Source: Phytopythium helicoides | Lineage: Eukaryota; Oomycota; Peronosporomycetes; Pythiales; Pythiaceae | Assembly (NCBI GenBank): GCA_024867545.1 | Contig: JANFNE010000032.1 | Span: 434,001-498,000, forward strand | Direction of reading: 5' to 3' | Length of the DNA stretch: 64,000 nucleotides | Shown here: piece after piece, positions 24,700 to 49,657 of the stretch | How positions within the stretch are numbered: position 1 is the stretch's first letter | Layout of the letters: each line of letters begins with the position of its first letter | Notes under the pieces: generated by a model | Told to the model about the DNA's origin: nothing | Seen by the model: the letters and a program-made list of their open reading frames with translations, nothing else | Database searches by the model: none | Position numbers and translations under genes: made by a program

Positions 24700-25350
24700 C
24701 CGTCGAGTTGTCAAGCAAACTCGTGCATTCCAAGCACTGTAATTCTAGCTAATTTATGAATAATGACCATCTCGATGATGATGAGTTCGATAGAAGCCTG
24801 TCGCGAAATCTTGGGCTTGTTGATCTCTGCGCGAGCGGATAGCTCAGATATTCCTGGTAGCTAATGAAATGGTCGCGACAAATTCTGATGACCGCGAATC
24901 AACTCTGCGCGCACCGAATTCTTTCAGTCTCGCGGGAAAGCACGTTGGGTGTCAGCGGGAATGTGAGACGGCCGTGATGCAACTGTACCAGTCGCTCAAC
25001 GACTCGTTGCGTGTTGAGTTGAAGCCAATCGCCCACGAAGAACCCAGTGGTCTACAGTATTTCAACGAGTCATTGGCTTCATCTCAACGCGCCACATTGA
25101 CTTGCGACTACTGACAGATCGAGCATCGTTTCTGCGCATGCTGCGCATGATGTGATGTCAGCCGCTATGGAGTGGCTGCATGCCAGATCCAAAAGAGATA
25201 TATGATGGTTGAGTCTGCCACGCTCATCACGTCAACGGCGACTATGCCAAATGTCGTAGACCACGTGCCTTTTGCATCCCGTGACTCGTCCTACGGGCTC
25301 ACATCCGCTTTCAGCCCTCTCAGCACCACCATCCAGTGATCCGAGCAAGC
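24700..25350. promoter_or_regulatory. Upstream region of the fatty acid synthase gene
   Basis: 651 bp without a supported gene; one small ORF (24869-25114) has no recognisable features. A short near-repeat 'catgctgcgcatgatgtgat' lies at about 25137-25156. The region should hold the FAS promoter. Confidence 0.4.
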
Positions 25351-31300: not shown

Positions 31301-34300
31301 TCTTCACACTTCATGGCACTGGTGTGAGGCGCTTTGTCGAGATTGGCCCAGCACCGACGCTCACGAACATGGCGCAGCGGTCACTGGAATCGAGCAACTT
31401 CCCGCAAAATACAGCTCGCGAGATTCTGTGGTATCAACGCGATCGCGAGGTTGTGCACTACGAAAGAGAAAACATGTATCCATCGGCATACGAGTACGCA
31501 CGAGCTCAATTTGCGAATGACAAAGCAGATAGCGCGAAGTTTGAGTTGCTGGGGGATCAATCGGCTGGGACGCAAATATTTGTTCATCACGCAAACGTCC
31601 CAATTGTGCAAATGCAACGAGCTGCTCCACAGACATTGACATCTGCACCAGTCGCCGACGCCTCGGTCACAGCCATGCACGTGCTTCGAGTGCTGCTCTC
31701 TGTGCGTCTCAATAAACCGCTTGACGACGTAAAGGAGGATTCAAACATCAAATTTCTGTCAGCCGGAAAGTCCGCTGTGCAAAACGAGATCGTGGGCGAT
31801 TTGGAGAAGGAGTTTGGCGACGGCATTCCTGAAGGCGCCGCCGAAGTACCCCTCAACGAACTCGCTGGCAAACTCTCGAGTTATCAATCGCTTGGAAAGG
31901 TCTCCAGTGCGTTGATCTCTAAGATCGTGTCGAGCAAGATGCCTGGTGGCTTCAACATGTCAGGTGTCAAGGGGTATCTAAGCGGTCCAAAAGCGCTTGG
32001 ACCTGGTCGAACCGAGAGCGTGCTCTTGCACTCGCTGACGATAGCTCCGAACACTCGCTTCAAGAGTGAAAGTGATGCGCGAAAGTGGCTTGACGAGTGT
32101 GTTGACAAGTATGCGTCGTTCGCGGGTGTGTCGCTAGATTCGATCACCACTACCGCACCTCAGCCGGCAACAGGATCGTTTACACCAGCAACCACTTTGC
32201 GCGCAAATGTCGAAGACGCCCCTGTGAATGCAAAGCACGCACTCCTGGTATTGCTAGCAGCCAAATTCGGCAAACCATTGCGCGAGGTAAACGAGACGAC
32301 GTCCATCAAGGAGCTTGCAGCAGGAAAATCGGCCGTGCAAAACGAGATCGTGGGAGATGTCGAGAAAGAATTCGGCTCCACTCCAGATGATGCAGCCGAG
32401 ATGAAGCTGACGGAACTTGCATCTAGGTGGCCACACTACAATGCTCCAGGGAAAGTCACGAGCTCGCTCATTGCCAAACTGTTCGCGAGCAAGATGCCAG
32501 GCGGGTTTGGACTATCAGCTGTCAAGGATCACTTGGCCACGGAGCGATGTTTGCCTGCAGCTCGGATCGACAGTGTGCTGCTTCATTCGCTGTCGCAGAA
32601 CCTCAAGCAGCGCTTTTCGAGCGACCTGCAGGCGAAGGAGTGGCTCAATGGAGTTGTGGATGACTATGCCAACTTCTGTGGCATCACTGTTCCGTATCGC
32701 TCGAAGCTGAGTACAGACGCAGTTATGACCGTAGGAGTCTCCAGCAACGCGAGTGCATCAGTTGGATCATCGCTACCGTTTGATTTGGAGAAGCGACTCA
32801 AGGCTATGATTGCCGACCAAGTGGACGCTTTGAACGAGTTTTTGGAGGAAGATCGACTCGCCTGGCACCACAAGATTGACACCGAAGTGGAGCTCCGCGA
32901 GGAGCTCGAGGGTTCTGTAGCTCAGTTCATTGCTGAGCATGGCGAAGTCTACGTGGACGGTGTCCGAAGTGTCTTTGATGCGAAGAAGGAGCGCGAGTAT
33001 GCCAGCTACTGGAACTGGGTAGTCCAGGATGCTATCGAGATATTCAAGACAGGTGATGCTGTCGAAATGAAGACGCTTGATGACTGGCTACGCAACCAGA
33101 AGGCATCTCCATCTCTCTGTCCATCCGCAGCGTTCAGGCATTTGTTGAATCGTGCAACACCTGAACTACTCCAGTGCGTAACACACTTCGCCCAAAGAGC
33201 CAGACTTGATGGCAGCATGGAGCGTTCGCATTGTATCGAGCTTTTTGCAGCCCAAGTGGAGACGTGGTTGAGCAAGTCGCCAATCAGCATGCCACAGTTC
33301 GAGCCAACAAAGCCCCAGCTAACCATACAAACGGACGGTAAGCTCGAGTACGCCGAGGTGCCACGTCAGGGAATCTTCAATGCTGTTGACTACGTTGATG
33401 AACTTGCGCGTGGGCTCGAGTACAACACCACCGCAAAAAAAGTGGAGGCTGGTTTCAGTAGTGATGAATTGACCTTCAGTCGAGACGGCAGTGCAACGGA
33501 AGATGAAGACGGGGACACTGATGACGCCAACAGCGACAAGGACGACTCAGTAGAGGATCTCGTCAAGAAGAACAAGGTGAAGAGGTCAGAGAATCGTGCT
33601 CCAAACACCTCCATACCCAACAAAACCTCACTGACTACCACTGAATCGTCATTGCGCTCTGACCTTGACACCTCTCTCAAGCAAACCGTGCTGCCGTTCG
33701 TGTATATCCGCAAACTCTCAGAAGTTGACCCAACACTTCGACTTTACGACGTCGAGTCGACAGTCGAATTACTCTCGTGTATGCGCGAGATGGCGTCTGA
33801 TGGGATCTCATTCGCTGGCAAAGTGGCACTGATTACAGGTTGCGGCAGAAACTCAATTGGTACTGAGGTCGTCAAAGCGCTACTGGAAGGCGGCGCAACT
33901 GTCTTCGTAACGACCTCGAGCTTCAGTCACGCGACGACGAGCTCATTCCACGAAATGTACGAACACCACGGTAGTCGAGGCAGTCGACTCTTTGTGGTGC
34001 CATTCAACCAAGCGTCCAAGGTCGACGTGGAGAAGCTCGTGGCTCATATCTACGAAACCCACAACTTGGACCTGGACTTTGTCGTTCCCTTTGCGAGCTT
34101 GTCAGAGGCTGGACGAACGATCACAAACATCGACTCGCGCTCCGAGCTCGCCCATCGCATCATGCTCACCAATATAATTCGCTTGCTGGGAGAGATCGTG
34201 ACAGCAAAGAAGGCACGGGGACTCTTGACAAGCCCAGCGCTCGTAATCCTCCCCATGTCATCCAACCACGGCAACTTCGGTGGCGATGGTCTCTACGGCG

Positions 34301-37300
34301 AATCCAAACTCGGAGTCGAGAGTCTCATGGCCAAGTGGAGTTCCGAGAACTGGGAGGAGCAGCTGTCGGTCGTAGGGGCGATCGTCGGCTGGACACGTAG
34401 CACGGGTCTCATGTCTGGAAACAACGATGTGTCCGAAGGAATGGAAAGGCTTGGCTTGCGCACGTTCAGCACTGCTGAAATGGGGTTCAATCTCACAGCA
34501 CTACTCCACCCGACGATCGTTGACCGTGCTGCAGATGAGCCTATCTGGGCAGATGTCTCGGGTGGCATGACGCTGATCAAAGAAGTGGGGAAAACCGTCG
34601 AAGCAATTCGCAACGAGATCACGAATGAGGCGAAAATCCGAGCATCCGTTTTTGCGGCGAACCAACGCGACAACCCAACAGTACATGCGACTTCTTCTGC
34701 CACGTCGCTAAAACCGCGGGCCAACATGTCATGCTTCTTTGGTGGATCATTCCCGGACCTCTCAGCTGCTCGCAAGCTCGTGGAGCAAACGACGAGTTCA
34801 GATGCTGAAAAACTCCCCCACGAACTGCTTCGAGGCATGCTCGACTTGCGTCAGGTGGTGGTGGTCACCGGGTTCGGCGAAGTTGGACCTTGGGGTAGCT
34901 CTCGTACTCGTTGGGAGATGGAGTCGTTCGGACAGTTCTCGCTTGAGGGGTGCATCGAACTTGCATGGCTCACTGGCCACATCCAGTTTGAGAATGGCAG
35001 GTGGGTCGATGCCAAGACCAAGGAAGCTGTCGCGGATCACGAGATCAAGGCCAAGTACGAACCCGCACTGCTCGAACGCTCTGGTATCCGGATCATCGAG
35101 CCCGAGCTCTTCGATGGCTACGATCCGCACCATAAGACGGTACTTCACCAAGTCGCAATCGACAAGAAGATGGCGCCGATCGAAGTTGCTGACCGAGAGG
35201 AAGCGATGGAAGTCCGTCGCGAACTTGGTGTTGACAATGTCGATGTCTTCCAGAATGCAGCAACTAGTACGTGGATGATCCGACTACGCAAGGGAGCAGT
35301 CATCAACATCCCGCGCGCATTGGCATTCGATCGCTTCGTCGCAGGTCAGATCCCAACGGGTTGGAGTGCGGAGCGTCTCGGGATCCCAAAAGATCTCGCG
35401 GACTCGGTGGATCCCATCACGCTGTATGCTCTGGCGTCGACTATGGAGGCGTTCGTTGCTGCCGGGGTGACTGATCCGTACGAGTTCTACCAGTATGTTC
35501 ATGTGTCCCAGGTGGGAAATACTTCTGGTGGAGGAGTAGGAGGTACTCGAGGGTTTCAACGAATTTTTCGGGATCGATCTCAAGGAAAAGCAGTCGCGAG
35601 CGATACGCTTCAAGAGTGCTTCATCAATGTGGCTCCCGCATGGGTCAACATGCTCTTGCTCAGCTCGTCGGGTCCAATCAAGACCCCAGTTGGCACATGT
35701 GCAACCGCCGCCGAGTCCGTCGAGATTGGTGTCGAGACCATCAAGAGCGGTAAGGCTCGTATCGTCATCACTGGCGGCTACGATGACTTCAGTGAGGAAG
35801 TCGCATACGAGTTTGCCCAAATGAAGGCAACGAGCGACTCGGTCCAAGAAGTCGCCATGGGACGAGATCCAAAGGAGATGTGTCGACCCTGCACCACCAC
35901 GCGCGGCGGCTTCATGGAGTCGCACGGTGCCGGCATGCAATTGCTCATGGACGCACAACTCGCACTCGACATGGGTGTCCCCATATACGGCGTCATCGCA
36001 CTGACCAACACGGCAACGGACAAGAATGGTCGGTCGGTGCCGGCTCCTGGTCAGGGAATCCTCACTACCGCTCGCGAGTCGCACAGCTCCGACATGGACC
36101 CGCCCCCGATGCTTGACATCTCCTTCCGTCGCCGTCAGTTTGACGCGGAGGTTGCGTGGATCGAGGCGTGGTTTGAGCGCGAGAGAGCGCTGCTGCCACT
36201 GACTAAGTCCTCCCAGCAATATGTCAAGGCGCTCGCCCACATGGAGAAGATCAAGGCTCGCAAACTCAAGTCGGCGCAAGCCATGTGGAGCACCGATTTC
36301 TTCACGGACCGCGACGACGTCGCTCCCATCCGAGGCGCGCTCAGCGTGTGGAATCTCACGGTCGACGATGTGGGCGTCGCGAGCTTCCACGGCACCGGCA
36401 CCAAGGCCAACGACAAGAACGAGAGCGAGGTGACGCACCAGCAGATGCAGCACCTCGGCCGCTCCAAGGGGAACCCACTGGCCGTCGTCTGCCAGAAGCA
36501 CTTGACGGGTCATCCCAAGGGTCCAGCCGCTGCATGGATGCTCAACGGTTTGCTGCAGGTGCTCAACAGCGGTGTCATCCCCGGCAACCGCAATCTGGAC
36601 AACGTCGACCCAGCGCTGCGCCAGTTCGACCACCTCGTGTACCCGAGCCGCAGCTTCCAGACGGCTGGCGTGCGCGCTGCGCTGCTCAAGAGCTTCGGCT
36701 TCGGACAGGCCGGCGGCGAGGTGCTGCTCGTGCACGCCGACTGCCTGCTGTCGACGCTGGCACCAGCGCAGCTCGCCGTCTACGCCGCTCGGCGAGAGAG
36801 GCGCCGCGCGCGCATGAACGCGCACCTACAAGGCGCGCTGCTGGGCCGCCACGCGCTCATCCCGGTCAAGGACTCGGCGCCGTACTCGTCCGCGCAGCAG
36901 AGCCGCGTGTACCTGGACCCCACGGCCCGCGCCTCCTTTGACGCGCGAGTCGGCTCGTGGCGCTTCACGGACGACGAGAGCGATGAAAGCGCGCCTCGCG
37001 AGCTACAGCAGGAGCCTCCCTCCTGCCAGGAGACCTGCACGTCTGCCACCTCGTCGCTTGACGCGCTTCTGGAGCCCGCAGCCGACGCCGCCGCCGAGGC
37101 TTCGCGGGTGCTAGCAGCGTTGCAGAACGCGTCGCCGTCGCTGGGCCTTGGCGTGGGCGTCGACGTGGAGCCGGTGGCGACCTTCGCGCTCCTCGAGGGC
37201 CGCGAGCGCTTCCTCCAGCGCAACTTCTCGCCCGCCGAGCTGGCGCTGAGCCGCGCATCGCCGCTGCCCGCCGCGAGCCTCGCAGGTCGCTGGGCCGCCA

Positions 37301-37587
37301 AGGAAGCCGCGCTCAAGGCGCTCTCAGCCGCGGCGCCAGCGCTCGAGCGGCCCTGGGCGGGCGCCGCCGCGCCGCTGCGAGACGTCGAGGTGCTGCCGGC
37401 GCCGTCGGGCGCGCCAGTCGCTCGGCTGTCGGGACGCGCGCTCTCCGTCGCGCAGGCCGCGGGCGTTTCCAGTCTGCGCCTGTCGATCAGCCACGCGGGC
37501 GCGCTCGCCGTCGCGCAGGCCGTCGCCACCGCCGCGCCGACGACGGCGCCTCATGGGAGACCCGGCAACTGCATGACTTCCGGGTAG
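25351..37587 (+). CDS. FAS: Single-chain fungal-type type I fatty acid synthase (fused beta-alpha) with two ACP units
   Basis: Makes long-chain acyl-CoA from acetyl- and malonyl-CoA. An intronless frame of 4078 codons, about the summed length of yeast FAS1 and FAS2, carries all domains in fungal order. Acetyltransferase (GHSQG, ~152). FMN enoyl reductase (RPPVLVSGMTPTT ~467; TGGRAGGHHSFEDFHEP). Dehydratase hot-dog (ASHDLNPIHRS, ~1463). Malonyl/palmitoyl transferase (GHSLGEYAGL, ~1711). ACP unit 1 (AGKSAVQNEI, ~2137) and ACP unit 2 (~2324). Ketoreductase (KVALITGCGRNSIGTEVV, ~2823). Ketosynthase (Cys ~3450 in TPVGTCATAAES; His in FHGTGTKAND and HLTGHPKGP). C-terminal phosphopantetheinyl transferase (GVGVDVEPV ~3931; GRWAAKEAALKAL). 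The open frame begins a few codons upstream, but ATG at 25351 is first. Base composition becomes much GC-richer after about 36250. All key catalytic residues I could check are present. Confidence 0.95.
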   Translation: MALQIRQVAEPSIHQTMGNPSAMTTFLATLHGDSYSFIAQFGGQGLEYWDELKFLYHKNNSTAARKLIALAADALFDESTSDECKRSSAFEQELNLSEWLDADCSKLFSIDWERATISYPLIALTQMANYVAFLEMSGADHASFVQRTTAAIGHSQGVVSSVVFAATRSTDEFIQLGVHMLRYMFWHGLRAQETFLELTASSSQNPCYDGDATPVLSVRGLSKTQVEGVIESINCSNSVQISLVNARDMFCITGLPSTLAQLKKKLKNLIAPAGIDQTRIRYSERRPVGSVSFVRLSCPFHCGMLSDAKKHILADVERIHFALYGQQLQVPVYATTSEATNLQTLGETSIIEAIVDMQLTQVADWTATWARLAQNHPTATHMLDFGPAMGVTKLSAAPAEALGIEVVHGGPIHDASNEATKVTTVIGPKKFLRDSGSHPKKTQSWGARFGPRIDTNGKLVNKFTRMLKRPPVLVSGMTPTTSLNGTDLVAAIQNAGFYGELAAGGLSRLNLFEDTVLKLASKIQPGVGIAINMLYLNVKQWSFQFPKVLSMRRDGVPIESITIGAGIPTLERAIEMIGELQSVGINLIAFKPGSIDGIYATLEIAKAAPTMNVMIQWTGGRAGGHHSFEDFHEPLEQTYAAIRRTENVILVVGSGFGNWEDSHAYLTGEWSLARGHVTKMPVDAILLGSRVMAAKEAATAPEVKQLLVDTPGIGRDEDWEQTYNGVVGGISTVSSEFGEPIHGVANRCGLLWKEFDDKYFSLPRDQIELALRRDKDSIIARLNADSHRPYFGRKMDMISGEYLAADLEEMTYAEVLQRMVELMFVNAKNRPRRWLHDSFQDRVAKFLIRAQERFYRDKPGYVFEQVRLITEPEAVLAEFAETYPQISTTLISVEDRDFFVSLCRLGGKPVNFIPVIDAEFKAWFKRDSLWYSEDLDAVFNRDPQRVSILQGPVAVRYITTVDEPVGEILSNIANGFIKVVSERDGSTVATTEQYPTSTSIAGVNVTMNEAGGVQIVVPNEKPLPEADEWVDGLGGLATTDWLATMINSKFVVENGKWVSNPVRALLRPQKHQTVVVDVNGLRVLDSSLALTKSVVDIHRDDATNCIQVTVCEVRPATTKLRASEIPLTLSFYYHPERTVPIATESSDALADKVKDFYARFWIAMEGDEDSSCTTACDASVQSTFSDEFVVSAKDVAAYNASVGLDISIAGAPVDFSTIIAWRPLIRSVFAKEVRGNLLNLVHLKHAYKLVVPDNGATNKRNKRFFFPGDELTITSTVSTLRIIESGKVVSAVAVISRKTANNELEPLIELRSEFLIRGVFTDFESTFASERSTHRFTISSRSDLEVLDNKSWLKFTEDINIGDELEFQVTTTKRFASPTLLQSIEVSGVLILKASKSEIQRATVEFSSTTATESPVTTYLRHIGQDPSDTSSSGMFSSGGYNMLETPLIISVPESALEYAVASHDLNPIHRSSYAAVLAQLPDGKPIMHGLWTATRVHALVVETLGAGQDANIRDFDVSFDGMVYPGESLFLQLRHIGVQGGYKIVAIEVVNAEGERVVTAHARVNEPPTAFVFTGQGSVVVGMGMEHYMESLTAREIWDRGDAHLRESFGFSILEIVRKNPKSMTVHFRGKKGRVIRDNYMRLMCIDPTTGVAVPQFPEISKRTSSYVFSAPNGLLFATQFSQPALVLFARASFAEIQAAQLITKGSVFAGHSLGEYAGLLSFAEVLEIDDAVEMVFLRGLIMQKAVQRDSTGRSDFGMVAANPQRVGNDFTPQDLLTVVNAIQSLSGKLLQVVNFNVQDQQYVVAGENVNLEVLALVLSEVNKKGKKAILVLDNIIAPLLTQTTIRKQQWEKERKPFVLTRDVATTPLTGIDVPFHSKMLVRGVATFRLVLQEKLKADVLERQLPMMIGRYIPNLTAEPFSLDREYFERVYDLTGSAHIAAVLEPNQWEHQTRAELAHVLLVELLAHQFASPVQWIKTQKLIFTLHGTGVRRFVEIGPAPTLTNMAQRSLESSNFPQNTAREILWYQRDREVVHYERENMYPSAYEYARAQFANDKADSAKFELLGDQSAGTQIFVHHANVPIVQMQRAAPQTLTSAPVADASVTAMHVLRVLLSVRLNKPLDDVKEDSNIKFLSAGKSAVQNEIVGDLEKEFGDGIPEGAAEVPLNELAGKLSSYQSLGKVSSALISKIVSSKMPGGFNMSGVKGYLSGPKALGPGRTESVLLHSLTIAPNTRFKSESDARKWLDECVDKYASFAGVSLDSITTTAPQPATGSFTPATTLRANVEDAPVNAKHALLVLLAAKFGKPLREVNETTSIKELAAGKSAVQNEIVGDVEKEFGSTPDDAAEMKLTELASRWPHYNAPGKVTSSLIAKLFASKMPGGFGLSAVKDHLATERCLPAARIDSVLLHSLSQNLKQRFSSDLQAKEWLNGVVDDYANFCGITVPYRSKLSTDAVMTVGVSSNASASVGSSLPFDLEKRLKAMIADQVDALNEFLEEDRLAWHHKIDTEVELREELEGSVAQFIAEHGEVYVDGVRSVFDAKKEREYASYWNWVVQDAIEIFKTGDAVEMKTLDDWLRNQKASPSLCPSAAFRHLLNRATPELLQCVTHFAQRARLDGSMERSHCIELFAAQVETWLSKSPISMPQFEPTKPQLTIQTDGKLEYAEVPRQGIFNAVDYVDELARGLEYNTTAKKVEAGFSSDELTFSRDGSATEDEDGDTDDANSDKDDSVEDLVKKNKVKRSENRAPNTSIPNKTSLTTTESSLRSDLDTSLKQTVLPFVYIRKLSEVDPTLRLYDVESTVELLSCMREMASDGISFAGKVALITGCGRNSIGTEVVKALLEGGATVFVTTSSFSHATTSSFHEMYEHHGSRGSRLFVVPFNQASKVDVEKLVAHIYETHNLDLDFVVPFASLSEAGRTITNIDSRSELAHRIMLTNIIRLLGEIVTAKKARGLLTSPALVILPMSSNHGNFGGDGLYGESKLGVESLMAKWSSENWEEQLSVVGAIVGWTRSTGLMSGNNDVSEGMERLGLRTFSTAEMGFNLTALLHPTIVDRAADEPIWADVSGGMTLIKEVGKTVEAIRNEITNEAKIRASVFAANQRDNPTVHATSSATSLKPRANMSCFFGGSFPDLSAARKLVEQTTSSDAEKLPHELLRGMLDLRQVVVVTGFGEVGPWGSSRTRWEMESFGQFSLEGCIELAWLTGHIQFENGRWVDAKTKEAVADHEIKAKYEPALLERSGIRIIEPELFDGYDPHHKTVLHQVAIDKKMAPIEVADREEAMEVRRELGVDNVDVFQNAATSTWMIRLRKGAVINIPRALAFDRFVAGQIPTGWSAERLGIPKDLADSVDPITLYALASTMEAFVAAGVTDPYEFYQYVHVSQVGNTSGGGVGGTRGFQRIFRDRSQGKAVASDTLQECFINVAPAWVNMLLLSSSGPIKTPVGTCATAAESVEIGVETIKSGKARIVITGGYDDFSEEVAYEFAQMKATSDSVQEVAMGRDPKEMCRPCTTTRGGFMESHGAGMQLLMDAQLALDMGVPIYGVIALTNTATDKNGRSVPAPGQGILTTARESHSSDMDPPPMLDISFRRRQFDAEVAWIEAWFERERALLPLTKSSQQYVKALAHMEKIKARKLKSAQAMWSTDFFTDRDDVAPIRGALSVWNLTVDDVGVASFHGTGTKANDKNESEVTHQQMQHLGRSKGNPLAVVCQKHLTGHPKGPAAAWMLNGLLQVLNSGVIPGNRNLDNVDPALRQFDHLVYPSRSFQTAGVRAALLKSFGFGQAGGEVLLVHADCLLSTLAPAQLAVYAARRERRRARMNAHLQGALLGRHALIPVKDSAPYSSAQQSRVYLDPTARASFDARVGSWRFTDDESDESAPRELQQEPPSCQETCTSATSSLDALLEPAADAAAEASRVLAALQNASPSLGLGVGVDVEPVATFALLEGRERFLQRNFSPAELALSRASPLPAASLAGRWAAKEAALKALSAAAPALERPWAGAAAPLRDVEVLPAPSGAPVARLSGRALSVAQAAGVSSLRLSISHAGALAVAQAVATAAPTTAPHGRPGNCMTSG
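31660..32150 (+). other. ACP unit 1 of the FAS
   Basis: Fungal-type acyl carrier unit (about residues 2104-2267): the canonical core with the phosphopantetheine Ser in AGKSAVQNEIVGDLEKEF, plus the structural helices typical of fungal ACP (SSKMPGGFNMSGVKGYL, SVLLHSL, DARKWLDECVDKYASFAG). Confidence 0.85.
32215..32700 (+). other. ACP unit 2 of the FAS
   Basis: Second complete copy (about residues 2289-2450) with its own AGKSAVQNEIVGDVEKEF Ser site and structural helices (ASKMPGGFGLSAVKDHL, SVLLHSL, AKEWLNGVVDDYANFCG). A Ser/Thr/Pro/Ala linker of about 20 residues separates the units. Confidence 0.85.
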
Positions 37588-37796
37588 TCTTCAAACTACT
37601 ATCCCCACCCATTTTTCAGGACTAGAATGGACTACTAGGTAGTCATAAAGTGACTACTTGGTAGCCAAAGCGTACACGGTCTCAAAACACGGTGTGATGC
37701 GGAGCTGACTACCAGGTAGTTATTCGTCAAACAAAACACGGTGGGTTTTCCACACATTGACTACCTGGACATCATTTATATGACTATCAGGTAGTC
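37575..37796. repeat. Cluster of 15-bp palindromes (GACTAyyNGGTAGTC)
   Basis: Six variants of gactaccNggtagtc occur in 222 bp. Positions: 37575-37589 (spanning the FAS stop codon), 37630-37644, 37652-37666, 37707-37721, 37759-37773 and 37782-37796. Most are symmetrical inverted repeats, often extended to tgactacc..ggtagtca. They lie between the FAS stop and the SLC35B1-like gene. They could be operator-like binding sites, a foldback array or 3'-UTR hairpins. Confidence 0.85.
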
Positions 37797-37808
37797 AAAT
37801 GGTGTCCT

Positions 37809-37912
37809 AAAACAAGGTGTGCACAGTGGGACTTTTCGGCGCCTCTGATTGGTGCGCCACGGCATCGACCGGCTAATCAGAGGCGCCAAAAAGTCCCGCA
37901 CCGCACCGTGTT
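37809..37912. repeat. Foldback / inverted repeat with 23-bp arms
   Basis: The left arm gggacttttcggcgcctctg (37828-37850 in full) is the near-perfect reverse complement of 37875-37897, with one mismatch and a spacer of about 24 bp. The symmetry continues imperfectly outward to aaacaaggtg / caccgtgttt. Immediately after it, caaggtg...caccttg (about 37919-37940) forms a smaller hairpin. MITE-like or structural; no target duplication was identified. Confidence 0.8.
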
Positions 37913-37959
37913 TCGATACAAGGTGGAAAACGCACCTTGTTTTGTAAACTGCCATTTCG

Positions 37960-38003
37960 TCACTCTCTCGAGGGAGCGTGTCGCCACTCTCTCGAGGGAG
38001 CGT
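37960..38003. repeat. Two direct copies of cactctctcgagggagcgt
   Basis: Two identical 19-bp copies, 24 bp apart start to start, lie about 60 bp upstream of the ATG at 38064. Each is itself partly palindromic around ctctcgagggag. They sit in the probable promoter or leader of the SLC35B1-like gene. Confidence 0.85.
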
Positions 38004-38063
38004 CCGGCGCGCCCCTTGCCGCGTGGCCCCATTCGCCGATCCGCTTCCGAGCTGCTCGATCTG

Positions 38064-39050
38064 ATGGCCAAGCCGGTGCTGTACGCGAGCGGCGGCGCGC
38101 GCGACGCCAGCATCGTCAACCTGGGCGTGTGCATCGCGGGCATCTACACGTGCTACCTGTCGTATGGCATTTTCCAGGAGAAGATCTTCACGTACCGCTC
38201 GCCCGAGGGCGACAAGTTCACGGCCACGCTCTTCATGCTGTTTGTGCAGTGCGTGACCAACGCGCTCGTGGCGTACGGAGCCACGTTCGTGTGGCGGCCC
38301 GAGCGCGCGGTGCTGCCGCTGCAGCCCTTCGCCTTCACGTCGTTCGCGTACCTCGGCGCCATGCTCTGCAGCAACGAGGCGCTCAAGCACGTGAGCTTCC
38401 CCACGCAGGCGCTCGCCAAGTCGTGCAAGATGATCCCCGTCATGCTCATGGGCGTGCTCATCCGACGCAAAAAGTACTCGCTGCGGGACTACGTGTGCGT
38501 GCTCGTCATCACCGCGGGCATCGCCGTCTTCCAGCTTGGAAAGGCCAGCAGCAAGCACAGCGAGCGAGAGAACAGCACCTACGGACTGCTGCTGCTCTTC
38601 ACGTCGCTCACGCTCGACGGCATCTCGGGACCCAAGCAGGAGGAGATCTCGCACCTGCTGCGCCCATCGGTGCACCAGCAGATGCTCTACACGAACGTCT
38701 GGGCTGTCATCTACACGGGCATTGGCGCGCTCTTCACGGGCCAGGCCTTCGCCGGCTTCTGGTTCTGCGTCGAGAACCCCGCGATCCTCCAGTCCGTCTT
38801 CTACTTCTCCATCTGCAGCGCGCTCGGACAGAACTTCATCTACTTCACCATCCAGCAGTTCTCGGCGCTCACGTGCACCACCATCACGACCACGCGCAAG
38901 TTCTTCACCATCCTCTTCTCGGTCGTCTGGTACGGACACGAGCTCAGCAGCATGTCCTGGATCGGCGTCGCGCTCGTCTTCCTCGGCATCGGCTGGGAGC
39001 TCTCGAGCAAGTACCAAAAGTACCGCGGCCAGACTATGAAGATGCCCTAG
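38064..39050 (+). CDS. SLC35B1/HUT1-like nucleotide-sugar transporter (UAA family)
   Basis: 328 codons, intronless, with about eight to ten hydrophobic segments. Family-typical stretches are YLSYGIFQEKI, SNEALKHVSFPTQALAKSCK followed by MIPVMLMGVL, LTLDGISGPKQEEI and TTTRKFFTILFSVVWYGH. These match the UDP-galactose transporter homologue / SLC35B1 group, which acts in the ER membrane (UDP-sugar, UDP-GlcA or ATP/ADP exchange depending on the member). The frame is open upstream to about 37908 through the repeat region, but ATG at 38064 (MAKPVLYASGG) is the natural start. It is convergent with the kinesin-MAP65 gene, stops 158 bp apart. The C-terminus (KYQKYRGQTMKMP) lacks an obvious KKxx signal. 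Confidence 0.87.
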   Translation: MAKPVLYASGGARDASIVNLGVCIAGIYTCYLSYGIFQEKIFTYRSPEGDKFTATLFMLFVQCVTNALVAYGATFVWRPERAVLPLQPFAFTSFAYLGAMLCSNEALKHVSFPTQALAKSCKMIPVMLMGVLIRRKKYSLRDYVCVLVITAGIAVFQLGKASSKHSERENSTYGLLLLFTSLTLDGISGPKQEEISHLLRPSVHQQMLYTNVWAVIYTGIGALFTGQAFAGFWFCVENPAILQSVFYFSICSALGQNFIYFTIQQFSALTCTTITTTRKFFTILFSVVWYGHELSSMSWIGVALVFLGIGWELSSKYQKYRGQTMKMP

Positions 39051-39208
39051 CCAGTCTCTAGACCCACCCACTCAATACACACTACTAGCTCTTCAAACCA
39101 CCATCGATTGCTCTTGGCTGCTGCGTGTTGCTGACTGAGCTTCACTACGCGCTGGCCATTATCAAAATCCTACACAAAACGCTCTTCTTCCTGCCTGCCT
39201 AAAGCAGC

Positions 39209-42200
39209 TCACGGCAGCTTCTTGTCACGCGATGAGACCACTGACTGTGATCGAATGCGTGCGGTACGCGCACCAGTGCTGGACTGGTTCGAGGACTTGC
39301 TCGCGGCACTGCTATTGCTACAAAGACTGCTGGAACTGCCTGACGAAGCCAACTGCGTCTTTGAACCACGACGCGACGAGCTCCGCCCGCTGTCCACGAC
39401 CGTAAGGTCGAGATGCATCAGCTCGGTGTCCGTATTCACCATATCCAAGATCATGTTCTTCATGTCGTGACCCAGGATATTGAGGTCGTAGTTGCCGCTT
39501 TCGTTATCTGTCCACTTCTGCACTTCGACGCGCAGCGCGGCAAGACGCGCCGGGTACTTCTTGGACATCCCCTTGCGGAACTTTTCTTCTTCGAGGAGGC
39601 GCAACGAACTGCCAGAAAACCGAGTCTTGTCGCTTGCCTTTTCCTCAAACTCAGCGATCTGTTCTTTGATGTGGTTGATGCTGTGATACAGCGTCATGAT
39701 TGTGTGAAGCGACCGAAGCCTCACACCCGCCGATTTGACTGCCTCACTCACAACGGAGACGTGATCGATTGCTTCTCTGAGCTGCTTCAACTGCCGAGCG
39801 CCATATGAAGGTGCATAAATCGTGTGGAGCTCGTCGTAGTCCGGGTCAAATTCAGAAAGAAGAGAGTCGGCACATTCAGAACTTGAGGTTGAGCCTGTCG
39901 AGGCTGTGGTGGTTTCATCGGAATCGCTTCCCGTGCTTGAGTACACGTATTTCTCCAAGATTGCCCGCGACGGATTTTCCTCCCCGCAGTCTTCACGGCC
40001 AATAAAGAAAGTCACGCGCTGCGTTGCCGAGTCGATTCCGTACTTGTCAAACTCGCCGTTGATCGAGCTCAGCATAGTGCAAAGCGCTGCCTCCATGTCT
40101 TGCGTCAACTTCTCCAAGCGGTATTTTCCTCGCGCTAGTGCATCGTAAAAACAGCCAAAATCTTCTTCCGAGACAGGATCGACGGCAGGAAGAACAGGAA
40201 CCACTGTTTCAGGGTGATCGCTTCCTTCCTCAGTCTCCAATGTACGCCTTGCAGACTCTTTAGCTTCTTCCATAAGCTTATCAGCCTCTTGAACGGTCTC
40301 CATAAGGAATGACAACGCCTTTGACCGACCTTCGGATATCATGGCAAATGCATCCCGAACACCCGCCAGCGTTTCAATGCCCTTTGTACTGATATCTCTA
40401 ACTCCTCCGCCATTCTCCACAACCATTGCCGCAACGGCTTGAATGCGATCACCTTCAGTACTGGTATCAAACTCATCAGCGCTTGATCGCCCGGCAAAGA
40501 AACTACGAAGTACAGAGATGATGTTTCCCGGGCTCAGTCGAATCTCCTCTGCTATCGATCGGATAGAGCCCAGGAGGTGCTCAACCTCACTAACACGCTT
40601 CGTCTTTTCTCGCAGCAGTGCACTGAGTAGCAGCTCGTCTTGCCGGAGGCATTCCGTTGAAATTGCTTTATCATTCGATGCCACAAGGCTCTCGACGAGG
40701 GATTGGAGGACAGTGAGATCGGTTTTGGCTTGGCCTTTCAGCTCCTTCCACTTTCCTAGCTGGGTCATACTTCTTTGAACAGCACACAAGTCGACGTTTT
40801 GCAGGTGGTCTTGCGGCACGTGACGGAGTTCTGCTAAATCATTGAGCTTCAAGTCGTCGAGCAACTCCTGGACGCGGTCTAAACCAGCAGTGCGAGCATC
40901 GACGCGCAGCCACAGTTCATCAGTAAGGCGAGATCGAAGGCGCAGGAGATGCTTCTCTTGTTCTAGCAGCGTTCTTCCAGCGACGGAATGCAGCATTTCG
41001 AGATCGATTGGGCTCTCCACGTCGAGAGCTGTCTCAAGCAATTTCACTACGGTGTACGCATCTCCAATTCGTTTCTGAAGTGTTTCGCGGGCGGCTTCCA
41101 GACCTTCGAGCTCCTCGGAGCATTTTTTCAGCAACAACTCGTTGATGTCATTGAATTTGCTGGCCTGGTCCTCGGCGTTGAGACCTAACTCGGTCCAAAT
41201 TTCTTGGCATCTCTGAATCCATTCACAGACAGTCAGTCAGTCGACAGCGTGATTAGAAAGAGTATAGGCTGCAACTTACATCCATCAGGCGGATAGACTC
41301 TCGCTTCACTTCACTAGCCTTCAGCTCGTCCTCCAACTCTTTTACGCGCTTGTTCAATCGTGCCTCGGCTTCTTCTCGTTCTTTGAGCTGTGCGCTGAGA
41401 TGCAGCTCTCGTTGATGAAGGGTTTCGATCTTTTCATCTGCGGCAGCGTACTTTTTCGCCAACATGTCTTCTTGTGCTTGGCTCAGCTCATTATTCGAAC
41501 CTGCACTCGCATTGAAGGATGTGATCATATCGAGTGTATCAAGCAGCTCGCGTTCAAATTTCGCCGTGAGCGCGTTTACTCGTTCAAGTTCGCTGGAAAC
41601 TTCAACGTCGGTGCTCGTCACACAGGAATCTGCTGGCTCGTTTCCGTCGACACTTTCAGGCTCTTCAAAGAACGCCATATACACCCGTTTCTGCGAGTAG
41701 ATCTCTTCGATCAAGCGTTTGATGACACTTTTTGCAACATCAAGTGACGGCACCGAGTGGACCAACGAAGACATGCTCTGCTGGCTCTCTCGTCGTGCAC
41801 GTAGTGCAGCCGAGATATCCGCGATATTCTCTTCACAAGCCCGCAATTGTTGCTCGTTTGAGGTTAGGAATTGTTGCTCAGTTATCCCTTCGTCCTCACT
41901 GGCAATCCAACCTTGAATTATATTTTGTAGAAGCATTGATCGTCTGCGGATCTCTTTTGATAAGGAAGCGTTCAGGTCTTCTTTATCAAGCGAGTCCTGT
42001 GGCACATTCGCAATAAGCTCGGTGATTCAACAAATTATATCCATATCACGGAACTCACCCGCATCTGCTCCATGATGTCTTGAAACAGCGTGTATGAAGC
42101 AGACGACATCATCTCATCCTTTGAGAAGAGAGACGACATGAAAGCGATCTCGACCTCGTTCTTATCAAGATAGGATGCCATATCTTTCTCCTCTCCAACC

Positions 42201-44887
42201 AGAAGATCAGCCATCTCGACTAAGTAGCACAGGTTGAATCGATGCTAGGAACAACAGATCAAAGGTCAGTTACTGTAGTACCTCGTTGATCAAGGCCAAT
42301 GTTTTACCTTTAGCTCGCTGGAGCGGATTAGAATGTCAAGTGGACTGGCGAGAGTAGTCCCGGACGGACCCTCAGCCCGCTGACGTAACTTCTGAAGACG
42401 TTCATGCTTCCTCCGAAGGTCTTCGCGGCACTTCTCCAGGCGCTCTTCCAACTCGATCGTACGAGCTGCTCTTTGACACTCCAGCTCCTGAATATCCTGC
42501 TTGACAGCCTTGATCTTATCAGCACATCGCTTGCTTTCTCTCTGGCAGCTTTTCAGCCTTTCTGAGCTTGCATCCTTTGCTTCCATCTCTGCTTGAATAG
42601 CGTCCATTTTCTCTAGAGCTGCAACTAAACCTCGCTTCACAAGCTCTTTTCGGTGCAACTTGGCGTCAATGTCGCTGATCTTGGCGCCAAACTGCTGTCG
42701 ATAAGACGCTTCACTTGCTTGCATTTCTTTGGCCTCGAGCGTCAAGGTTATGATGTCCAGTGTCCGCGAGAGCTGGTATAGCGAGAATGGCGCCATCTGA
42801 ACTGGAGACTCGGTCGTACTTCCATCCTCGAATGTCTCCACTACCGTGTCGTCGCCGCTGTTGGAGTAATCGAAGTCTGACTCGCGAGAGGTCAAGTCTG
42901 TATCGTCGCCGGCATCTTCTGGGGTTTCTGGAGACTCGATCCGCGCTACATCTGCAAACTGAGAAGATAGACTTGCGAGTGCGCGCTGAACTTCAGGTGT
43001 GATGTAGTTACTTCCCCCAGATGACGACCCGGCACCAAGATTGGATACCGCAAGCTGCTCAAGCTTTTTGAGGTAGCCGAGCACAGTTGAGTCGGTGAGC
43101 ATGGCATCAACCATCGCTTCAGCGCGCGATCCGGTAGCTCCAGGTCGGACAAACCTCGCCTTGATGAGTTCTCTGCGGAGTAACTCGTTAAATGCTTTTA
43201 GATTTAACACCTCAGCCGATCGGCTGTCGATATTCTTGACAGCCTTGTTCTGAATGTTCTTGGCGCGGTTTGCGTATTGGAGTGTGTTGTACGTTTCTTG
43301 AGCATTGGAGCTGGCTGGTGACACACATGCACTAGCACAAGCAAAGACAATTATTGGTTAGGAACAATGCCTCGTCATGCCCAAATCATTGTGGTAACAT
43401 ACATGAAGAGCGTCCGGCTGTTGCCGCCCAAGGCGTCTTGGAGTAGTCGCGTCAGCTTGGATGACCGATACGGAACGTGCAAATGGGCAGCTCCTCGCCG
43501 ACGCTCATCTCCGAGTGCGTTGATAACATTTCCCAGCGCAAGCAGACCCACGTTGATTTGGATACCTTCTTTCATTCGGCTGCCTTCAGCCAGGGTCTTT
43601 TTTAGCCGCTCGCTCCCAGCCAGGTCGACGAATGTGAGCTTTGACACCACGGTGGCACTCGGCTCTGGTTCACGCGGGTTAGAGCTCCCCGATTCTGATC
43701 CAGAGTCACTAGCTCGCCGAGGTACAGACTGTCGTCCACGCACTATTCCCTTGGCTGTTGGGGACGCTTTCGGACTGCTTTTTTCATTCGGATTGACGCT
43801 GTGCACAACCTTGACGGTGTATACAGCATGAGAGCGACTCGAGCGCTCGTTCATTTCGGTCCGCCCAGTGATACGACGCAGAGAGCCGATGCGCATTTGC
43901 TCCATTGCGTCTGCTCGGGATCCGACCTTGACCTGAAGTTATCGACGTGTCAGGCTCAAAACGCGTCAACTAAGGGTCCACGTGAATGACCTTACCTCGG
44001 TGAGTCCGATCACATTAACTCCGGCTTTTGTCTCGCGCAGCTGCAGGCTGTCCATAGCACTGTTGTCTTGGTTTGATTTCGAGCTCTGCAGCAAGTCATG
44101 GATCTCTTCTCCGTAGATCTCGAGAAAAGATACGGATACTTGGTGATTGTCCTTGCTCGCCTTGTTAAGCCGGTCAAAGAGCTGAAACAGGAACCGCGGA
44201 ATGAGTCCGTCGTCCGGCTGCAGCGAGTCGGCCGCTTCTGGTCGAGATTTAGACGTGGCTGCAGACGTGGAACGCCCCAGCAAGTGGTTGGCTACCATGG
44301 CCGAAGACGGCATGCTGTTCCCCATTGTGTACGTCTTTCCCGACCCTGTCTGGCCGTACGCAATGACCGTGACGTTGAAGCCCTGCAGGAACGAGTCCAT
44401 CCACGGCTGCAGCGACTGCTCGTACAAGTCTACATGCATCATCCCAGGCGATCAGAGCAACAGCCAACACCTGCAACACCACTGCCGTCAACGCACCATT
44501 CTGTGTCGCCGCCTGTGGGAAGACGTGGTCGAACCTGCCGTTCATCCATCCATCCATCAGCTCCCCCCATCCACCCAAAGGAGCACACCCGCCCACGTAC
44601 GTGAAGCGCTTGTCGTCCTGCAGCTCGATGGACTCGCGCGACGGGTGGCGCAGACTCGCGCGGTCGTTAATCGCCAGCTCGCGCGGCAGCAGCGGCCGCA
44701 CGCGCACCGCCACGCGCACGCTGCCGTCTCCGCGCTGGTTCGTCGCGGTCCTCGGCGGCTGCTGCTGCGGCTCCTCGAGCTCTTCGAGCCCCGCGGGCGA
44801 CGCCACCGCAGCAGACGCAGCTGGAGGCGCTGGCGCAGGCAGCGAGGGCCGCGCGAGGCTCGGGATGCGGCTCGGCGCCTTCCTCAT
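39209..44887 (-). CDS. Kinesin-4-like motor fused to a MAP65/Ase1/PRC1 microtubule crosslinker
   Basis: Eight exons: 44589-44887, 44497-44534, 43996-44429, 43403-43932, 42308-43331, 42059-42244, 41280-42017, 39209-41212. Introns of 41-71 nt keep phase throughout, giving about 1750 aa. Motor (about 58-445): [14 protein letters not shown]-loop GQTGSGKT (138-145), FLEIYGEEIHDLL, NERSSRSHA (285-293), DLAGSE (360-365), [17 protein letters not shown] coiled coil of about 600 residues follows. The last exon starts exactly with the MAP65 opening, RCQEIWTELGLNAEDQ. It continues with LLKKCSEELEGLEAARETL and ends with the PRC1/Ase1 signature EKASDKTRFSGSSLRLLEEE plus KFRKGMSKKYPARLAAL. The join uses a perfect GTAAGT donor and TTCAG acceptor, both phase 0. 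The first intron boundary and the 41-nt intron are the least certain. Likely a spindle-midzone or phragmoplast-like overlap factor. Confidence 0.87.
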
Positions 44888-45311
44888 GGCGCCGGCATGT
44901 AGCGATGTGGCCTTTCTCCTGAGAGGAAACCAAAGGGAAACCCTTTGAACGTCACTCCGGATTGGGGGCGCTTCAGCCAATGACACGCGAGAACGCTGGA
45001 CGCAAAGCGTCCGGATTGGCTGATTTGCCTCTGGGTTTCAGCTGGCGCGAACCACTGGCGCCCAGTATACTAAACTATGGCGTCCCGTGAAACTCCCACC
45101 CACTACAAATATAAACTGTAGTCTAACATTTATTTTAACAGTTCAGAATGCATACAACCAATCGCAATCCTACTCACAAAACATTGGATCTCGCAGGTTG
45201 GCGCTTCAACATCGCCGATGCTTTTCAACGCAGGACGCGAATAGCTCGGCGGCCAACCGCCCGCACGCTCATTGCAGCTCGTCCAGCGCCTCGCAGCAGC
45301 TCCAGGCGGCC
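44888..45311. promoter_or_regulatory. Shared divergent promoter of two kinesin-4-like genes
   Basis: 424 bp between start codons at 44887 (-) and 45312 (+). The part near 45070-45180 is AT-rich (for example tataaactgtagtctaac). Joint cell-cycle regulation is plausible but not shown by the sequence. Confidence 0.5.
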
Positions 45312-48300
45312 ATGAGCGCGCCCCCGAGGCGCCGCAGCTCCACCGAGGACCGCAACCGGCCGTCGCGCGTGCGCGTGGCGGTGCGCGTGCGGCCTGTCAA
45401 GCCCGGCACGCCGCTGTGCCTCGAGGAGGAGCCTCCGGCGCTCTACTTTGGCCACGAGGGCATCAACAAGGACTTTGCGTTCGACCACGTCTTCCCGGGG
45501 ACGGCCACGCAGGAAGGTAGCGTGGAACGTTGTGGATGCAATAGCGACAGCGGGCAGATGGTGATAACGCGTGCCATCGCGACAGATGTGTACGTTGGCT
45601 CCATGCGGCCGTTCTTGACGCAGTTCCTCAACGGATTCAACGTCACGGTGCTTGCCTACGGGCAGACCGGCGCGGGAAAGACCTACACGGTCGGCCACAG
45701 GGCTTCCTTGAGCCCGTGTCCGTCGCCCGATCAGCCTCGGAGCGCCGACAAGCCGGCGTCTTCCTTCGCTGGTCCGGACGATGGACTCATACCACGCTTC
45801 CTTATTGATCTGTTTGACGCGCTACGCAACGAGCCGAGCGTCAAAAAGATCCACGTGTCGTTTCTTGAAATCTACTGCGACGAGATCCACGATCTGCTGA
45901 GCAGTGCACGGGGAGGAGTCGGTGCTCACCACGCTCGAGCCAGCATGGGCGGTGGTATAGGTCTCAGCTCTATCAAAGAACGTCCTTTGATCATTCGAGA
46001 CGCAGAGCATCGCGTTGTAGTGGAGAATCTGACGCAGGTGCAGGTGGAGACCGCAGCCAAGGCTCTCGAGCTTATGAACATTGGGCGTTCCCGCCAAGCC
46101 ACTGGGTCAAACGCACTGAACGACCAGTCAAGTCGCTCACACGCCATTTACACAGTCGAGGTCTCCCGCAAGTTCAAGGCCGACATCAAGAACGCCAAGT
46201 TGACGTTTGTGGACTTGGCTGGCAGCGAGCGACTGCAGAAAACCAACGTGCAGGGAATGTGCATGACCGAGAGCATCCAGATCAATGGTACGATCAGCTC
46301 CTTTGCGTCGCATGAGGTGAATTGACGTAGCTTACTTGTATGCGTTTCCTGCAGTTGGCTTACTTGCGCTGGGAAACGTCATCAATGTGCTCGGTGAAGG
46401 ACGACAAAAGCGCCGGCGAAGTATCGACTCGAGCGGTGCGAATGGTGACACCGTATCCTTTGTGCCGTATCGAGCGTCCAAACTTACTCGGCTGCTCCGT
46501 GAGGCACTTGGCGGAAACTCCATGTCTCTGTTCATGTCCGTACATTGTGTCGTTATTTTTCTTCATGAGGTATTGGATCATCTGACCAGCGCTTTTGCAT
46601 TCCTCTTGCAGTGCATGCGTGTCGCCAGCTACATCGAACAGCAGCGAAACACTTTGCACACTCCGATACGCCGATCGAGCGCGCGGTATCCAGAACAAAG
46701 CGCAGCAAAATGTTGAAGCCCTGACCCAAAGTGAAGCGGGATCGCCCGTCAACCCTGTGGTTAGTCCTCGTCGGACACTCGCGCGAACCGCGAGCGAGAT
46801 TGAAATCACTCGGCTTCAGGAGCAGGTCTTGATGCTCAAGCACCAGCTCGATATGGCAACCGCCGCAGCAGCAGAGGCAGTAATTCGCGCGACCACTCCC
46901 AAAAAACCTGATAGTCCATCAAAATGGACGACACCGTCCAAGCTAGTCCGGCCTTCGATTACGTCTCGCACCCCGAAAAGCTCAGGATCACCTGAGTCTG
47001 CGTCAGTCACTCGATCAAAGTCACAAGGGCAGGCTCCGAGTGTCAGACCGTCACCCCTCAGTCGTAGTAAGAGCCAGAGCGCTGCTGACAATGACGAAAA
47101 TATGAAGACAACACCAGTTGTCCAGAGACCATCAATGTTAGTCCGACCACGCATTCACTCAGTCGACCGAACAGCTAAACTAGAGTTACCAGTGAACGTT
47201 GACGACACTTCATCAGCTCCAGCACCAGCGCCACCTAAAAGAAAGTCATCAGCGTCAACTCTGGCATTCAAGCTATTCGCTGATCAGGTTAAATCAACCT
47301 ACACATCCAAAGAGAACGAGCCACTGAAGGAAGAGCAAGTTATGCTCGCTTGTCATGTCGACAATGTGGAGGAGTTTGCTACCCTGAAACTTACAGCACC
47401 GAAAAGCAAGTCAGAGCTTGATTTCTCGCCTGATTCGTGCAAAACTGGTGAGTGCACAACCGACACTGTCAAGCACCAAACTCGTGAAGACATCTGCATC
47501 GAAAAACTGCCCAAAATCAAGAATGGTCTCGGACAGAAGAGTCGCACCTGCAGTGACAGCTCTGATGAATCGGTCTCACAAGCGATAGCTCCGGGCTTTA
47601 TTGAAAAGACAAACACCTCGCCGACGCTTCTACGTCAACCGAGTGCAGTTGGTGACTTTGTTCGCCGGCAATCTCCTCCTTCGCGATTACAGACTCCGCG
47701 CGCCGGGATAAAGAGTGAAAATTCGGCACTGAAGTCGTTTCTTGCTACTGTAAAAGCACCAATTCCCGCGCCACCGCCATCACCCACTCCAAGTGCGCCA
47801 AGTCCAGAGCGGGTCTCTGTGCCAGCTCCTGAACGACGAATCTCGGCCCGAAGCAGCAAGCTCCTTTCCTTTCTTAAAAATGTTGGAGGATCTGGCCGTG
47901 CACTTGCGGCATCAGCTGATACTAACCCCGCTAAGGAAGTGGCTGCCACATCGAACAAATTTGAGAATAAGGCACCCGCTGACCAGGTCTCTGAAAGCGC
48001 TGACACAAATCTGCAATCTTCAAACGATGAGCATTCATTTGTAATAGTTGCTGAGGAGATCTCTCAGGTAGAAAAGACTCTGATCAACGCTCCAAGCCCA
48101 ATTATGAGGGCACATGCAGAAAAAAGAGTCGAGACCAATGAACAGTCGACTGCTAGCATATCAAGCCCAAATAAATCCAGTAATGCCCTAAGCCAGTCAC
48201 TTCCTGCTCGCGTGGAAATATTGGCTCGCAATGATGTCGCAGCAGAATCCAAGCTGCAAACTCCTGTCTCAATAATCCCGGATGATGCCAGTGTAGTTCA

Positions 48301-49291
48301 GACAGATCCGACGGTCGAATCGGAAGTTGTCGAGCTCTCTGTGACGAATTTTGTCTACCCTCGTGGCGCAATTTTTCCTGAAGAGCCTATGGATTGGGAA
48401 CTAATTGATATTCCAAAGGCAACCACCGATCAAAGCACCCAATGCGACGAATTGATGAGTATTCCCGAGGTACATCAGACACACAGCCTTGATGAGAAAA
48501 AAGCTTCCGACTTTGTTATTGATCGTTACGACTGGCGTGGGGCCATCCGTGACCACTACAAGCAGCGTCAAGGTTCATCCACTCGACGGCGTATAGGAGA
48601 TCGCGTGCGTCCCATCAAGTTTATTCCCCTCGACCAGGAAATAAAAGAAAACAACCAAAACGAAATGGCGTCGAGAGACGTTCCACAGAAGTGTCAGCTG
48701 GAACAACTTCTTGGGGATATGCGTGAGCTCGTATTGGGAAGTACGAGCGAAAAGATTGATGACGACGGGAATCAGAGCCACGACGAGCCACTCACAATCA
48801 CAACATTCACTGACCAGATGGCAATGTTACTTCAGTCGCAATCGCAATCGCAGCAACGCGTTGAAGTCTTGAAGCGCCAGGTCCGCCACCTTGCTAGGCT
48901 GCTTGGAGTCTATCCAGTTGGAAAGCACTTGCCAGCACTGCCTGCTTTAATTGGGATGAATTCTTTTGAAGCAATAGCAGCCTTGGCAGACGACCAACTT
49001 GGGAGTTTTACGCTTCGATACCAAGAATCGATTTTGCAAGCGGCGTTGGCAGAAGGTGAAGCGATTGTAGTCGAGCGTATCCGAGCCCGCGTCCAAAACT
49101 ATGAACAAGCTGCTCAAGCAAGCGGTGATGATCGACCACCTGTTGACGTTTTTCTAGCGTCGGACCAATATGCAGCCTGCCAATCTGCTCTCCCTCTTGG
49201 CCGCAAACAGCTCCTCCCGCTGGTGATGACTGGGTGGATCTCTGTTGTTCGTGCAGACTTGGACGCAGAGGTTGCTTGGCTCGCGCTTTGA
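45312..49291 (+). CDS. Kinesin-4-like motor protein with unique C-terminal domain
   Basis: Four exons (45312-45516, 45586-46287, 46355-46535, 46612-49291), about 1255 aa. The first 69-nt intron has no stop, so the frame reads through it, but splicing restores the family stretch [14 protein letters not shown]. Motor: [13 protein letters not shown]-loop GQTGAGKT (94-101), [71 protein letters not shown]. The third intron has an unusual GTCCGT donor. The stalk is long, Ser/Pro-rich and mostly disordered, with short coiled coils ([31 protein letters not shown]). The last ~110 residues form a compact helical region I do not recognise. It is head to head with the kinesin-MAP65 gene and shares the motor type, suggesting an old local duplication. 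No MAP65 part is present. Confidence 0.87.
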
Positions 49292-49657
49292 ATCGTCCGA
49301 AAGAAGGACACAACTACAAAATGCCTTGAAGCTAAATAACTCGACTACTAACGCTCTTCGAACTATAGCAAAGCACATCTGAAATAACCTTAAGATACCT
49401 GTGTGAGCGACGCAGCAGGCAAGCGGATGACGCAGTCGGCGGACCTTCCAACGCACTCACGGCCACCGAACGAAAGCTCTGCGCGGCTCACAGTTCACAG
49501 TCGTCCATCGTCGCGCCATCTCGCTTGCCTGCTTCGACGCTTGCACTGGTCACGTCGCCTCTATCTTCTAACTCCTTGATCCCTCTAATATGACCCTCCG
49601 TCATGCTACAAACGTACCTGTGAGTTACAGGCTTTGACCCTCATCTGGCTCTCTCGC
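49292..49657. other. Convergent intergenic region
   Basis: 366 bp between converging stop codons of the kinesin and the FAD oxidoreductase. No gene or structured element was recognised; presumably both 3' UTRs. Confidence 0.5.

Follow-up and report, generated by a model that had tools for sequence, protein, structure and literature searches.

A predicted gene joins a kinesin-4-type motor in frame to a MAP65/PRC1-family module in the oomycete Phytopythium helicoides

The window analysed here, a stretch of 64,000 nucleotides (nt) from Phytopythium helicoides (assembly GCA_024867545.1, contig JANFNE010000032.1, positions 434,001 to 498,000 of the forward strand), carries on its minus strand a gene model in which a kinesin motor is followed by a module of the MAP65/PRC1/Ase1 crosslinker family. 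Between the ATG at 44887 and the stop at 39209 (window positions), eight exons can be spliced in phase across seven GT-AG introns to give a translation of 1746 residues plus stop, confirming a preliminary description of this DNA that had read eight exons in consistent phase from an N-terminal kinesin into a MAP65 module. The introns measure 41 to 71 nt, and all except intron 6 fall between 63 and 71 nt. Intron 6 spans 41 nt if the first usable acceptor is taken; a CAG acceptor that lies 21 nt beyond it is more typical and would make the intron 62 nt, a reading that shortens the protein to 1739 residues and leaves the kinesin/MAP65 junction the same. With the long open frame at 25285-37587 of the window as the training set for codon scores (exon 7 being scored from 41996), every one of the eight exons is positive in the proposed frame, at 0.03 to 0.43, and in each exon this frame outscores the five others. 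Exon 1 gives the lowest value, 0.03, barely above zero; the value for the opening 60 nt of exon 8 is 0.10. As a gene model read from the sequence, the fusion is thus confirmed. An Rfam scan of 38500-49500 returned no family at its threshold. The assembly as a whole contains 64 matches to the elicitin family at E up to 0.001; elicitins are typical of oomycetes, which agrees with the origin of the DNA.

The two parts of the predicted protein meet at intron 7, which is 67 nt long and was recovered exactly as first described, with the same boundaries, a GTAAGT donor, a CAG acceptor and phase 0 on both sides. The codon score is positive right up to this intron on either side and negative in all three of its own frames. 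Two tandem genes could in principle only seem fused here, with a kinesin-4 gene ending inside intron 7 and a MAP65 gene starting in exon 7, either from a tiny first exon or from an internal promoter. Retention of the intron does bring in a stop after eight codons (41255-41253), giving a short kinesin that ends in ...MDVSCSLYSF-stop, and a methionine in exon 7, two residues upstream of the junction, might serve as the start of such a MAP65 gene. Against this arrangement stand the gap of just 67 nt between the parts, an ordinary intron length for this gene, the consensus donor and acceptor in phase, and the codon score on both flanks. Moreover, the MAP65 frame of exon 8 has its first methionine no earlier than residue 73, so that a MAP65 protein initiating inside this exon would lose its conserved beginning, and we regard tandem genes as very improbable. 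The same stop, eight codons into the retained intron, is also what one would expect if a single gene made two products, free kinesin-4 by intron retention or early polyadenylation and the fusion by splicing, in a tunable ratio. Such tuning has a rationale in passages of a study where overlap length in vitro depended on the amount of PRC1 relative to KIF4A, PRC1 being in excess (PMC6616649): locking the two at 1:1 would take away a means of regulation that cells may require. However, any intron containing a stop would look alike, and other kinesin-4-like genes in the genome could provide free motor, which leaves the two-product arrangement unlikely.

The N-terminal part of the fusion is a motor of recognisable type. 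Residues 62-456 match the Pfam Kinesin family (PF00225) over the entire profile, positions 1-327, with 326.5 bits (E 2e-97), and the nucleotide motifs of the motor, P-loop, switch I and switch II, are intact in the translation (sequences in Table 1). Searching the Protein Data Bank (PDB) with the motor placed four KIF7 chains, two KIF4 chains and 7x4n in the top seven, at 243.5-272.2 bits, followed by KIF3B at 216.5 bits. The PDB titles 7x4n 'kinesin-like protein'; we take it to be the kinesin-4 KLP-12. We also built a tree of 22 motors comprising the fusion, the kinesin gene that neighbours it, KIF4 and KIF7 as the named references, a motor on contig C37 assembled from three frames, and 17 unnamed segments of the same genome. 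These 17 are the long segments out of 122 exon-level kinesin matches, one of them covering two matches; L014 and L020, which have internal stops, and shorter or partial matches were excluded. The fusion, its neighbour, KIF4, KIF7 and two further genes of this genome form a clade with 99/99 support, within which the neighbouring kinesin is the sister of the fusion motor (100/99) and the remaining branches are not resolved. The ranking of PDB chains and this clade support the kinesin-4 assignment of the preliminary description, and the motor is best read as kinesin-4-type. For a gene on contig C25, KIF4 ranks first in the PDB at 350 bits, which indicates that the genome retains at least one further kinesin-4. 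Elsewhere in the tree, L024 sits on a very long branch, and two near-identical motor pairs on separate contigs (L005/L006 and L017/L018) are recent duplicates or uncollapsed haplotypes. Within the fusion motor, a long Ser/Pro/Arg-rich insert with two SP sites lies ahead of switch II in exon 4, at about residues 295-345.

Exon 8 by itself matches the Pfam family MAP65_ASE1 (PF03999) with 51.2 bits (E 1.1e-13, cut-off 26.9). The lack of a significant MAP65 match in this last exon had been set beforehand as a refuting point; the match obtained is significant. The bulk of the score comes from the spectrin-type microtubule-binding segment, which passes the cut-off alone at 37.4 bits and whose sole PDB matches below E 1 are human PRC1 chains (best E 3.5e-4). 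With exon 8 as the query, PDB matches up to E 10 are likewise PRC1 chains only (three sequences). A scan of viral contigs with exon 8 found no relative.

To place this match against the rest of the genome, we searched the assembly (49 Mb, 100 contigs) in six frames with the MAP65_ASE1 profile at E up to 10, and six matches were listed from 8 first-look candidates scored. The two best, at 36 and 23 bits, both lie in exon 8 and follow each other in profile order; the other four score 13.3-16.8 bits. Chance similarity between coiled coils as the source of the MAP65 match was rejected on this comparison, 36 and 23 bits in order against at most 16.8 elsewhere. When the exon 8 protein was searched against the genome, it recovered itself and one stray match at 13.6 bits, and no match to the profile was listed on contig C25. 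One match of 13.8 bits, at C37:393499, lies downstream of another kinesin-4-like motor, and we took it as background because the surrounding open frames look like coiled coil by eye. With the remaining matches at or below 16.8 bits, the search yielded no stand-alone MAP65, a negative that holds for the first-look candidates scored in an assembly of unstated completeness and that a gene of many small exons could escape. The frame, both profile matches and the genome search together support what was first proposed for this locus, a natural fusion in which a kinesin-4-type motor appears to be joined in frame to a MAP65/PRC1/Ase1-family module, in an assembly where a separate MAP65 was not found.

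The two parts are separated by a linker of about 600 residues that is charged, helix-like and coiled-coil-like as judged by eye, and in which exon 7 matches no Pfam family above its cut-off. An aromatic pair followed by acids in exon 7, AFFEEPE, recalls the PRC1-docking motif of KIF4A and may well be chance, because the whole protein holds three such aromatic pairs.

A number of results weigh against a working motor-crosslinker fusion. The gene model comes from the genomic DNA of one species. Pfam scans of the complete 1746-residue protein (E up to 0.1) and of exons 7 and 8 joined (E up to 1) do not list MAP65_ASE1. As the match is there with exon 8 by itself and disappears once exon 7 is attached, the HMMER composition filter, set off by the coiled-coil-like linker, probably hides it, and this masking may be why annotation missed the MAP65 domain. 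The profile search of the joined protein proposed in the preliminary description hence gave a divided answer, with Kinesin reported at E 2e-97 but MAP65 from exon 8 alone. If masking is the right explanation, routine annotation of orthologues would miss the domain as well, and the case suggests that standard Pfam scans can overlook a domain that adjoins a coiled-coil-like stretch.

Further points against the fusion concern the module itself. Its N-terminal half alone scores 23.1 bits, under the cut-off of 26.9, though above every other match in the genome (at most 16.8 bits), and the first 200 residues find no PRC1 chain in the PDB. The normal family beginning first claimed for the module is accordingly borne out in part: the match does start at profile position 5-8, but at 23 bits, below threshold and without PDB support from the single sequence. 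R377, R381 and K387 of human PRC1, which we presume to be microtubule contacts under a numbering that we presume as well, align to R, S and E in exon 8, so that the affinity for microtubules may differ from that of PRC1; the changes at R381 and K387 count against the fusion, and the C-terminal signature, said to be kept, is mostly there, with two of these presumed basic positions altered. Two single-sequence structure predictions reached a mean predicted local distance difference test (pLDDT) of 41.1 and 40.7 and gave helices only, an untrustworthy fold. These observations can be read as a last exon that is a divergent MAP65-like tail, which has lost crosslinking and serves as the microtubule-binding tail of an ordinary kinesin; the glutamate and serine at the K387 and R381 equivalents and the weakly matching dimerisation half would fit. 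Both halves of the profile nevertheless match in order, and the genome searches described above turned up no further MAP65 that could take over crosslinking; we hold a mere tail to be unlikely. A last, mild point against the fusion comes from passages of a study in which green fluorescent protein (GFP) at the N-terminus of human PRC1, near the dimer interface, slightly reduced localisation (PMC10620760), suggesting that the dimer might not tolerate a large addition at this end.

Table 1. Features of the fusion gene and its head-to-head neighbour, in positions of the 64,000-nt window.
Feature	Positions	Strand	Content	Basis or score
Exon 1	44601..44887	-	ATG at 44887; kinesin motor begins here	joined translation
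Exon 2	44497..44534	-	38 nt, FDHVFPQAATQN	joined translation
Exon 3	43996..44429	-	P-loop GQTGSGKT	joined translation
Exon 4	43403..43932	-	switch I (NERSSRSH) and switch II (DLAGSE)	joined translation
Exon 5	42308..43331	-	end of motor and initial part of linker	joined translation
Exon 6	42059..42244	-	linker	joined translation
Exon 7	41280..42017	-	linker, charged and helix-like by eye; alternative start 41996 (62-nt intron, CAG acceptor)	
Intron 7 (critical, phase 0)	41213..41279	-	GTAAGT...CAG; links kinesin and MAP65 parts	
Exon 8	39209..41212	-	MAP65/PRC1/Ase1 module, then Ser-rich, basic tail	Pfam MAP65_ASE1, 51.2 bits
Kinesin motor domain	43253..44704	-	residues 62-456, spans introns	Pfam PF00225, 326.5 bits
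MAP65 module, N-terminal half	40235..41212	-	profile positions about 5-254	23 bits in genome search, 23.1 alone
Spectrin-type microtubule-binding segment	39497..39715	-	profile positions 338-411	36 bits in genome search, 37.4 alone
Sister kinesin-4 (context, outside the fusion)	45312..49291	+	1255 residues, 4 exons; divergently transcribed, head to head	

The neighbouring kinesin offers some indication of how the fusion may have arisen. Its Pfam matches are Kinesin and Microtub_bd alone, both over the motor; there is no MAP65 match, and its tail matches nothing in Pfam up to E 1. By eye, two of its three introns share position and phase with introns 2 and 4 of the fusion gene, in the contexts TQ[N/E]-D and LF-I-ACVSP, and there is no such correspondence for its third intron or, in the fusion, for introns 1 and 3. 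The two genes look like products of an old inverted duplication, and the lack of a MAP65 match in the neighbour suggests that the MAP65 part was acquired after this duplication or was lost from the neighbour. On the other side of the fusion gene, an open frame at 37761-39050 (plus strand), by eye like a membrane protein of the nucleotide-sugar-transporter type, is convergent with it, and 158 nt lie between the end of this frame and the fusion stop. The frame at 25285-37587 (plus strand) is a single open frame of 4100 codons that by eye resembles a type I fatty acid synthase in one chain, in which two repeats look like carrier proteins.

Human cells make motor and crosslinker as two separate proteins, which have to meet in the middle of the dividing spindle. 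In passages of two papers, human KIF4A attaches by its C-terminal part to the centre of the PRC1 dimer, where the N-terminal dimerisation domain lies (PMC6616649, PMC10620760). The fusion would join the same two ends that touch in that complex, from which we propose a pre-assembled motor-crosslinker for antiparallel overlaps. We consider it probable that one gene here encodes a covalent kinesin-4 and MAP65/PRC1 crosslinker, most likely a ready-made counterpart of KIF4A-PRC1. In such a protein, the N-terminal kinesin-4 motor would be tied to the N-terminus of the crosslinker module by a linker of about 600 residues; the MAP65 part would dimerise and bind antiparallel microtubules through its spectrin-type segments, the attached motors would walk to plus ends within the antiparallel overlaps, and there they would limit growth or slide microtubules, mainly in the spindle midzone. 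We infer the single mRNA, the dimerisation, the antiparallel preference, the plus-end motility and the mitotic role. Whether kinesin-4/PRC1 has become one polypeptide that is also the only MAP65 left in this oomycete lineage, with a ratio fixed by the genome and recruitment bypassed, we regard as an even call.

If two proteins that contact each other in animals are naturally fused here, this would argue independently for the importance of the kinesin-4/PRC1 pairing outside animals. The fusion would likewise provide a ready-made construct of constant ratio for testing the model, set out in passages of PMC6616649, that antiparallel overlaps owe their length to the ratio of PRC1 to KIF4A. Should a separate MAP65 really be absent, these organisms would rely on one unusual protein for their division machinery. 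The novelty is one of combination, two known families in what appears to be a new arrangement whose function we infer. Among the literature matches listed (titles, beginnings of abstracts and passages), no kinesin-4/MAP65 fusion is described, and the preliminary description knew of none. For Phytophthora sojae, PMC1434745 gives 43 possible kinesins, and the word MAP65 is absent from its main text and from PMC5795050.

Set beside known systems, the predicted protein departs from each of its parent families. Like the members of PF03999, exon 8 scores above the curated cut-off and conserves the spectrin-type segment, but it differs in having a kinesin upstream in frame, a weak N-terminal half and alterations at the presumed basic positions. 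The N-terminal motor falls within the KIF4/KIF7 clade of the kinesin-4 family, yet it is divergent, carries the long insert before switch II and has a MAP65 module as its tail. The closest likeness is to the KIF4A-PRC1 complex of animals, where, in passages of one study, motors dock through paired aromatic motifs on the dimerisation and rod domain of PRC1, and where a PRC1 MEE mutant (M54, E57, E58) was used to probe motor binding (PMC10620760). These three residues align to L, A and R in the fusion, which would fit a docking site that is no longer needed and is a hint only, the stretch scoring -1.4 bits. In both cases the same two families are paired, the motor by its C-terminal side and the crosslinker by its N-terminal side; whereas the animal motor is recruited by docking, the fusion would replace the docking step with a peptide bond and a fixed 1:1 ratio.

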